A DNA stretch of 64,000 nt from an uncultured beta proteobacterium (GTDB taxonomy: Bacteria > Pseudomonadota > Gammaproteobacteria > Burkholderiales > Burkholderiaceae), in contig CAIQHU010000060.1 in assembly GCA_903871735.1 (NCBI GenBank), positions 62,001 to 126,000 on the forward strand, written 5' to 3'. Both the position numbers and the translations under genes were made by a program. The notes under the pieces were generated by a model. That model worked only from the letters and a program-made list of their open reading frames with translations. It did no database searches and was not told the origin of the DNA. This document shows, one piece after another, positions 13,728 through 16,524 of the stretch (position 1 is its first letter; the number at the start of each line of letters is the position of its first letter).

Positions 13728-14948
13728 ATGCCACGTTTTCATTTTGAAGCGGTATCGTATTCTGGAAGTACTGAAAAAGGGATATTAGAGAGTGATTCTT
13801 TGCAATCTGCTCGGCAACTATTACTGAGTAAGCAGCTTGTTCCTATCTCGCTAAGCCCTTATCAAGAAAACGCGAAGAAGAGTATTTGGCAGCAAATCAC
13901 CTTCAGTAAGCAGCGTCTTAGTCAAGATGAATTAGCCTTTTTTACGAAGCAGTTTGCTTTATTAATTCGCTCTGGTATTCCCATTGATCAGGCTTTGGCA
14001 ATTTTGTCAGAAGAGACAACTTCTTCTCATGTGCAGGATATTTTAGAGGGTGTCTTAGATGAATTGCGATCTGGTATGCCACTTTCAAAGGCGATCAGCA
14101 CGCAGCCGAAATCTTTTGATACCTTGTATCAAGGTATTGTTGCAGGTGCAGAGCAAAGTGGAAAATTAGGCTTAGTCTTACAAGAATTATCTTTGTTTTT
14201 GGACAAGCGGCAAGCTCTACGACAGCAAATAACGAATGCTTTAGTATATCCAGCGCTATTAATTAGTATCTCGATCATGGTGGTTATCTTTTTGATGACG
14301 AGTGTAGTGCCGCAGATTGCGAGAGTTTTTGCTAGTTCAAAACAGCAATTACCATTTTTAACGCGTTTTATTTTAGGCTTATCTGAGTTTTTAACGACCT
14401 GGGGTTGGCTCTTATTACTGATCTTATTATTGACTGGTTTTTGCGTACATTTTCTCATCAAAAAGGAGCGGATCAGAAAGTCTTTTGACGGATTTTGTTT
14501 GAATTTACCGATGATTGGCCATTTAATCCGATCATTTGAAGTTGCCCGTTTTGCCAATAGTATGTCGATGATGATTGCCGCGAACGTACCGATACTGGAT
14601 GCTTTGCAGACTGCCAGGCAGACCCTATCCAATGTGGTTTTACAGTTTGCCATTGTGGATACTGAAAAGCGGGTACGAGAAGGCACTAGTTTTTCACGTG
14701 CACTTGGTATGACGGGGGTATTTCCAAGTTTATTGATTCATTTGATTCGGGCGGGAGAATCTTCTGGTCAATTAGCGCAAATGTTAAAGTACGGTGCGCA
14801 AAATGCTGAATTAGATGCTCAGCAAAAAACAAAGATGATTTCGACCTTACTAGAGCCCATTTTGATTTTATTGATGGGCCTGATTGTTTTGGCAATTGTC
14901 TTGGCGGTAATGGAGCCTATTTTGGAGATGAACTCAGGTATTCGTTAA
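13728..14948 (+). CDS. gspF: Type II secretion system inner-membrane protein GspF
   Basis: FFTKQFALLIRSGIPIDQALAIL, LVYPALLISISIMVVIFLMTSVVPQ, T2SS_F duplication, LLEPILILLMG. Confidence 0.97.
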   Translation: MPRFHFEAVSYSGSTEKGILESDSLQSARQLLLSKQLVPISLSPYQENAKKSIWQQITFSKQRLSQDELAFFTKQFALLIRSGIPIDQALAILSEETTSSHVQDILEGVLDELRSGMPLSKAISTQPKSFDTLYQGIVAGAEQSGKLGLVLQELSLFLDKRQALRQQITNALVYPALLISISIMVVIFLMTSVVPQIARVFASSKQQLPFLTRFILGLSEFLTTWGWLLLLILLLTGFCVHFLIKKERIRKSFDGFCLNLPMIGHLIRSFEVARFANSMSMMIAANVPILDALQTARQTLSNVVLQFAIVDTEKRVREGTSFSRALGMTGVFPSLLIHLIRAGESSGQLAQMLKYGAQNAELDAQQKTKMISTLLEPILILLMGLIVLAIVLAVMEPILEMNSGIR

Positions 14949-14985: not shown

Positions 14986-15216
14986 TTAGTTAGACATCGA
15001 GGTTGACTCTTTCAATTTGGTTTTAGCTGTATCACTAATATCTAGAACCACTGATGGTGAAATTGGGTTGGGTGTGGAGTTGGATTGGGTGGCTACTTGA
15101 TTGAGTTTGGTTTCATCATTATTGATGGTTGTTGTGGATTTGGTTGGTGTAAGACTTGAGTCAAGTTTGGAGAAGACTTGATCTGCTGAGCTAAGAGCAT
15201 AGGAAGAGACATTCAT
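14986..15216 (-). CDS. Small uncharacterised protein (76 aa), paralog of 16103..16315
   Basis: MNVSSYALSSADQVFS...STPNPISPSVVLDISDTAK shares both termini with the 70-aa ORF. Confidence 0.75.
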   Translation of the reverse strand: MNVSSYALSSADQVFSKLDSSLTPTKSTTTINNDETKLNQVATQSNSTPNPISPSVVLDISDTAKTKLKESTSMSN

Positions 15217-15326
15217 CGTGCAATCCTTTCAATCTGTAATGTGAATAATCATATCATTTTTACATATTGAGAGGAATTTTTTGGCTTATAGGGTCATCAA
15301 ACGGGTAAGTTTATAAAGAGATATTT

Positions 15327-15953
15327 ATGAGTTCGATATTAAAGCAGTTACTTGGTATAAAAAATCCAGTTTTTTTACAGCAACTCATAGACGCAATGTG
15401 TAAGCCAATCGAGCCCTTAGTTAGCGAGGCTTTATTACAGGTTGGTGAGCTTGTGGATCAGGTTTCTGGGGAATTTGATATTAAAAGTGCAGAAATACAG
15501 GCATTTGACCAGGTTTTGAGAGAACAAGACGCGGCTGCGATTAGCGCACTCCAAACGTTAAAGCTGGCAAAGCCCAATGAGGTGAGTATTTTAAATAGTT
15601 TGTGGCAGATCTCATCGGGCAAGCCTTTGGGCAGTGAGTTTAGTCCTCTACTAGGTCTTAAGCAACTACAAAGTGATGCAAAAGCGGCTTTGCTTGCAAT
15701 CCAACAGCTGCAGGCGCAAATCAAGTACATGCGGCACCTATCCAGTGCAGTGCGAAAAATTACTAAGGAGCGTCAATTAGGATCTCAAAGTTCCAAAGAG
15801 GCGGTTTCTGAGTTAACTGAATATCTCTTAAATCGAAGAACAAGATCAATTTTAAAGCAGGCTTATGAACGAGGTTGGATGCCAGAGGTACCCTTAAACA
15901 GTTCGGCAGAGCGAGCAATTTTTAAAGAAATTTGGTATCTAGTAAAAAAGTAA
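15327..15953 (+). CDS. Hypothetical protein, predicted helical and cytoplasmic (208 aa)
   Basis: Uninterrupted ORF, no signal peptide or recognisable motif; lies between the two small paralogs. Confidence 0.65.
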   Translation: MSSILKQLLGIKNPVFLQQLIDAMCKPIEPLVSEALLQVGELVDQVSGEFDIKSAEIQAFDQVLREQDAAAISALQTLKLAKPNEVSILNSLWQISSGKPLGSEFSPLLGLKQLQSDAKAALLAIQQLQAQIKYMRHLSSAVRKITKERQLGSQSSKEAVSELTEYLLNRRTRSILKQAYERGWMPEVPLNSSAERAIFKEIWYLVKK

Positions 15954-16102
15954 GGAAGTAAAGAAGGATGTCCAGTCCGTAAAGTTTGACAGGATAGCAC
16001 TTAGCTAGGACCAATTAGGAAACAGAATATAAAAAAGGAACTACTGTAAATCGGGGGCAGGGGTGAGTCTTTGGTGAAGAAAACCTGTATTGCGTGTGTT
16101 CT

Positions 16103-16315
16103 TTACAAAGACATCTTAGCTGTTCCGCTAATATCTAAAACCACGGCCGGGGAGACAGGGTTGGGAGCGGATTGTTGTTGAGCAGCTTCAGCAGATTTAC
16201 CAAAATTGTTTATATTATCTCGAATCACATTGAGTGACTTCGCATAATTTTGGTTCGCTTGAATGCTAGAAAAGACATCATCTGAAGAAGTTAGCGAGTA
16301 GGATGAGATATTCAT
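16103..16315 (-). CDS. Small uncharacterised protein (70 aa), paralog of 14986..15216
   Basis: MNISSYSLTSSDDVFS...SAPNPVSPAVVLDISGTAK. Confidence 0.75.
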   Translation of the reverse strand: MNISSYSLTSSDDVFSSIQANQNYAKSLNVIRDNINNFGKSAEAAQQQSAPNPVSPAVVLDISGTAKMSL

Positions 16316-16524
16316 AAATTTTTTTCAATTAATTAGAATAAGGTCACTATATCATTTATTCGATATATTGGCTAAATATTTGCAGATTTATTGATAAAAC
16401 AGGTGCTTTATGCAATGCGAGTTGGGAAAAGTCAGTCCTGCGCTGATCCATTTAGTTATTTTGGGTACTTGGAGTGCTTCTTGATGCATGTAAGTCGTAC
16501 TTAACTACAGAAGATGGTGGATAG

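Follow-up and report, generated by a model that had tools for sequence, protein, structure and literature searches.

What is the role of two tiny genes that lie directly behind a run of T2SS genes, and do they serve that neighbour? The window, by which we mean the whole stretch of 64,000 nucleotides analysed, comes from a freshwater-type bacterium and carries two minus-strand ORFs of 76 and 70 aa, ORF1 and ORF2. An earlier note had placed them right after gspF and on either side of a plus-strand ORF of 208 aa (p208), and that description is accurate (Table 1). The two had also been taken for paralogs because of shared N- and C-terminal ends; those ends read as the note gave them, and the similarity is indeed far beyond chance, a single BLASTP comparison giving 46% identity over 70 aa (57.8 bits, E=3e-18). 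The claim of an unrelated middle has to be given up. The alignment of ORF1 with ORF2 spans the whole of both proteins and has a gap of 2 residues, the middle being more divergent than the ends, and the ORF2 middle (LNVIRDNINNF) is conserved in a relative from a flagellar locus (VNSIRDEINNF). A search of the 2.76-Mb genome gave no copy besides these two.

Table 1. Positions of the features discussed, in the window unless a locus is named.
Feature	Position	Strand	Basis or remark
gspF, last gene of the T2SS run, neighbour only	13728..14948	+	Pfam T2SSF E=1.3e-54
ORF1, 76-aa small protein MNVSSYALSSADQVFS...TPNPISPSVVLDISDTAKTKLKESTSMSN	14986..15216	-	ATG start; paralogy, purifying selection
Divergent intergenic region ORF1/p208	15217..15326		Predicted from sequence reading
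p208, 208-aa orphan protein between ORF1 and ORF2	15327..15953	+	Mostly helical, low-confidence model
ORF2, 70-aa paralog MNISSYSLTSSDDVFS...APNPVSPAVVLDISGTAKMSL	16103..16315	-	ATG start; most similar to the small protein from the flgN-fliA gap of G206/G174
Predicted sigma-70-like promoter of ORF2, TAGCCA-17-TATAGT with TG	16346..16374	-	Sequence reading
Wider small-protein sub-family members	L018:1669-1926, L041:4947-5183, L065:1062-1319, L066:9093-9350

Purifying selection acts on ORF1, ORF2 and p208 alike, so that they are genes, not chance ORFs. Between the window and G103, ORF1 differs by 15 synonymous changes and 1 nonsynonymous change (dS 0.35, dN 0.006); the comparison of ORF1 with G024 is uninformative for selection, because the gene and its upstream DNA are almost identical in the two. 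Between the window and G024, ORF2 shows 9 synonymous and 2 nonsynonymous changes, and p208 about 24.5 and 6.5, respectively. The gene starts are poor in interspecies DNA changes, synonymous ones included: ORF1 has 0 in its first 46 nt (15216-15170) and 16 beyond, and the start of ORF2 (16315-16211) is likewise unusually poor in them. The binomial P values are about 0.05 and 0.03, a weak signal since the cut-offs were picked after looking. The DNA around the start of the small gene of L018 and L022 (the G206 and G174 copies, described below) is identical.

Does the pair belong to a known family? The earlier note recognised none, and neither do Pfam, NCBIfam, PADLOC or PDB, while PHROGs returns only noise at E=0.01-0.02. 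A defence or phage origin was rejected on these PADLOC and PHROGs results, and an RNA element was rejected because Rfam gave no match and the 5' RNA is unstructured. Homologs were found neither on plasmids nor among viral contigs, and literature searches on Polynucleobacter flagella and secretion yielded no title or abstract bearing on ORF1 or ORF2. For the small protein, AlphaFold predicts with low confidence a single helix (11-44) and flexible ends, at a mean pLDDT of 59 and with the best block at residues 51-60; the p208 model, with a mean pLDDT of 46, is not good enough to base a fold search on. Searching 60 relatives and then 186 genomes of the genus, probably Polynucleobacter (GC about 43%), we found close homologs in five: the window's own genome (G000), G024, G103, G206 and G174. 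The order-level and family-level samples, of 399 genomes each, hold no credible homolog beyond the genus. Weak homologs in G017, G019, G020, G025 and G030 are chance matches whose frames are not such small proteins, the family-level matches in G603 and G778 lie in frames that overlap or run antisense to ordinary genes, and those in G616 and G866 contain in-frame stops. The family is narrow: as far as searched, it is confined to a few species with larger genomes, all from one Burkholderiaceae genus. The window's genome, G024 and G103 form one tight clade with the common arrangement gspF-ORF1-p208(-ORF2); ORF2 comes next in order in G024, and G103 has the first third of ORF2 at the end of another contig. 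p208 is found only in these three genomes.

Where do the relatives outside this clade reside? In G206 and G174 a homolog lies between flgN and the convergent fliA, with flgA and flgM as neighbours, the orthologous small gene occupying L018:1410-1641 and L022:120-354, respectively. It reads MTTANISSYAFNSSNDIFYTM... and then ...SPN[PA]VSPSVVLDMSGTAK, and each of the two genomes has its own single-base frameshift in it, which suggests independent decay, assembly errors being less likely; the gene may thus be dispensable in those species. The two stretches of it that can be read match ORF2 at 60% and 51%, middle included, and score lower against ORF1, which makes ORF2 the more probable orthologue. 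G206, G174, G191 and G203 also encode a second, more distant sub-family, whose small protein is related but extends further at its C-terminus. It resembles ORF1 and ORF2 in size, in polar composition and in a P.[ST]PA.[IV][IL].[IL]S.T motif near the C-terminus, but this shared core is followed by an extra tail, SSxGNLYxSxxxW (more broadly SSxGN[LI]YxS...W), that ORF1 and ORF2 do not have, and its N-terminus and middle are barely alignable with ORF2 (20-24% identity). The profiles of the two sub-families, A1 and A3, align in hhalign at E=2.3e-4 and a probability of 44.5%; together with the C-terminal motif, this similarity gives moderate support only to a link between them. One copy of the wider sub-family adjoins the flgN-fliA homolog in G206 and G174, and another stands beside FliL in G206 and is found again in G174. 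A member heads the flgA-flgM-flgN-fliA cluster of G191, and one in G203 has a matching flagellar neighbourhood split over two contigs. Wherever the neighbourhood was read, the member of the wider sub-family lies in a flagellar cluster; around the relatives, Pfam identifies FliA, FlhF, FlgA and FliL, and a FlgM match is also found. This location is seen for the relatives in G206, G174, G191 and G203, not for the window's own pair.

In the window's genome, genes for FlhA, FlgI and the hook/basal body are present, on contigs similar in composition to the window. A true flagellin was not found in it, the single Flagellin_N match being a FlgL-like gene after flgK. Its flgN-fliA gap (L050:17282-17515) holds a small Cro/XRE-type DNA-binding ORF and not the small protein. 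G024 and G103, both incomplete drafts, lack a match to FlgI, FlhA or flagellin, all three markers being absent in both, and keep the pair; a flagellum may therefore not be needed. FlgI occurs in 63 of the 186 genus genomes, most of which are without the family.

Among known proteins the nearest in looks and neighbourhood is FlgM, the anti-sigma-28 factor (PF04316). The relatives of ORF1 and ORF2 are encoded close to flgM, both kinds of protein are small and flexible, and they have a vaguely similar [AS]..[IV]D[IV]S.[ST]AK stretch. The C-terminal, sigma-28-binding part of FlgM, which PF04316 covers, has no counterpart in ORF1 and ORF2, however, as these end soon after the motif, and a true FlgM is encoded in the genomes as well. 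ORF1 and ORF2 do not match PF04316, and the hhalign probability is 1.2%, so we reject them as FlgM. The earlier note's aside on flagellar small proteins, offered there as speculation, gains support from the genomic context of the relatives; sequence similarity to FlgM itself falls short of significance. FlgN, the export chaperone (PF05130), is a gene neighbour in G206 and G174 and likewise has a helical middle, although this compares it with a low-confidence model; ORF1 and ORF2, at roughly half its length, do not match its profile, and there is a FlgN-like gene besides them.

The upstream regions were read for promoters. ORF1 has a candidate extended -10-like element, TGATATGAT (TGATATAGT in G103), about 35 nt 5' of its ATG, and the predicted ORF2 promoter matches it in extended -10-like style and lies about as far upstream of its own ATG, though promoter-like sites are no more numerous in the region than in shuffles. 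Neither gene has a convincing sigma-28 promoter, the best score of 10 of 12 being reached by ~5% of shuffled trials, and the best sigma-28-like match of ORF1 is not conserved in G103. Early flagellar genes require no sigma-28 promoter.

How do the competing explanations fare against these observations? The earlier note had tentatively suggested a T2SS-linked regulatory, chaperone or effector role, and the location of the pair immediately behind gspF in each of the three clade members would agree with this or with an accessory function. The neighbours are genuine T2SS genes (gspM, N, D, E and F, read and confirmed by Pfam). GspF is nevertheless present in 32 of the 186 genus genomes, two of them with distant 28-30% matches, and 29 of the 32 are without the pair, which accompanies gspF in the three near-identical clade members only; co-occurrence, which the earlier note had wished to see checked, thus gives a T2SS role little support. 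Linkage in three near-identical loci amounts to a single event and therefore says little on function. Family members occur in G206, G174 and G191, where GspF has no match, and that of G203, a genome with GspF, is in a flagellar cluster. As the note had said, no signal peptide is apparent in either protein, which also speaks against such a role. We consider a T2SS function improbable. Where the sequence downstream of gspF was read in other T2SS loci, an M23-peptidase-like gene mostly comes next (L103:2727-3629 and L128:600-1487, for instance), and an M23 protein, 33% identical, is encoded near the FliL-linked small gene of G206. A contig titled Thermoflexus hugenholtzii (L014, CALPOM020000091.1) is nearly identical to the window's T2SS locus, and its title looks mislabelled.

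A self-contained island of ORF1, p208 and ORF2 with an unrelated function, for example as a module for regulation or stress with p208 as target or partner of the small proteins, would make the flagellar location of the relatives incidental. The three genes stay together under purifying selection in the window's genome, G024 and G103, the latter two showing no flagellar markers, and ORF1 and p208 have a divergent promoter region in common. Three near-identical loci make this synteny weak evidence, however, and p208 is absent from G206, G174, G191 and G203, whose family members, where the neighbourhood was read, are all in flagellar clusters; an island of this kind appears rather unlikely, if a serious competitor. 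Might the small proteins instead be flagellar type III export substrates or FlgM-like decoys, with the unstructured N-terminus as export signal and the C-terminal motif imitating the stretch that precedes the sigma-binding domain of FlgM? The relatives neighbour flgM and flgN, and SPAVVLDISGTAK and TPAASIDVSVSAK look alike, hhalign aligning 18 columns, yet the low match probability, the lack of a Pfam FlgM match and of a sigma-28 promoter, and the retention of the pair where flagellar markers are absent leave little room for this idea. Patchy distribution and the frameshifted copies of G206 and G174 would suit lineage-specific orphan genes of little function, on their way in or out; given how strongly purifying selection acts in the window's clade, we regard this as a slim chance.

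We tentatively favour, as a possible role, that ORF1 and ORF2 are flagellum or motility accessory proteins. Because the relatives reside in flagellum gene clusters, the pair probably serves motility or another surface machine and not the adjoining T2SS. Both are genuine, translated small proteins, presumably cytoplasmic, and each would be mostly flexible, with a single weak helix in its middle. The conserved C-terminal NPxSPxVVLDISxTAK may constitute a docking motif that binds a putative flagellar or motility-regulatory partner, the protein serving as a flexible adaptor. In the window's clade the genes occupy a separate island, ORF1-p208-ORF2, whose position after the T2SS genes is most likely incidental. 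A bolder version, to which we give little credence, is that a new small disordered protein family rides on or tunes the flagellar export/sigma-28 switch, and that one branch moved beside the T2SS genes and was kept after the loss of flagella; if true, this retention would imply re-use for another surface machine.

What are the implications for the locus? The original observation is right, its T2SS reading is weak, and the pair represents a real but narrow orphan small-protein family. An unannotated family under selection is thereby documented, and the hypothesis on its function shifts from T2SS to motility. Should the motility role prove true, the flagellar systems of freshwater bacteria would gain a small protein that is a regulator or linked to export; should it prove false, the pair would be one more lineage-specific small-protein family. 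The DNA upstream of flgA carries a conserved gene run in G191 (L065:2206-9449), G206 (L023:60-6270) and the window's genome (L050:7823-15315), encoding a 268-aa protein, a membrane PDZ protein, a CheW-like-looking protein and two proteins of ~800 aa. PDZ is the only domain that Pfam recognises in it, and the run looks like a degenerate chemosensory set.
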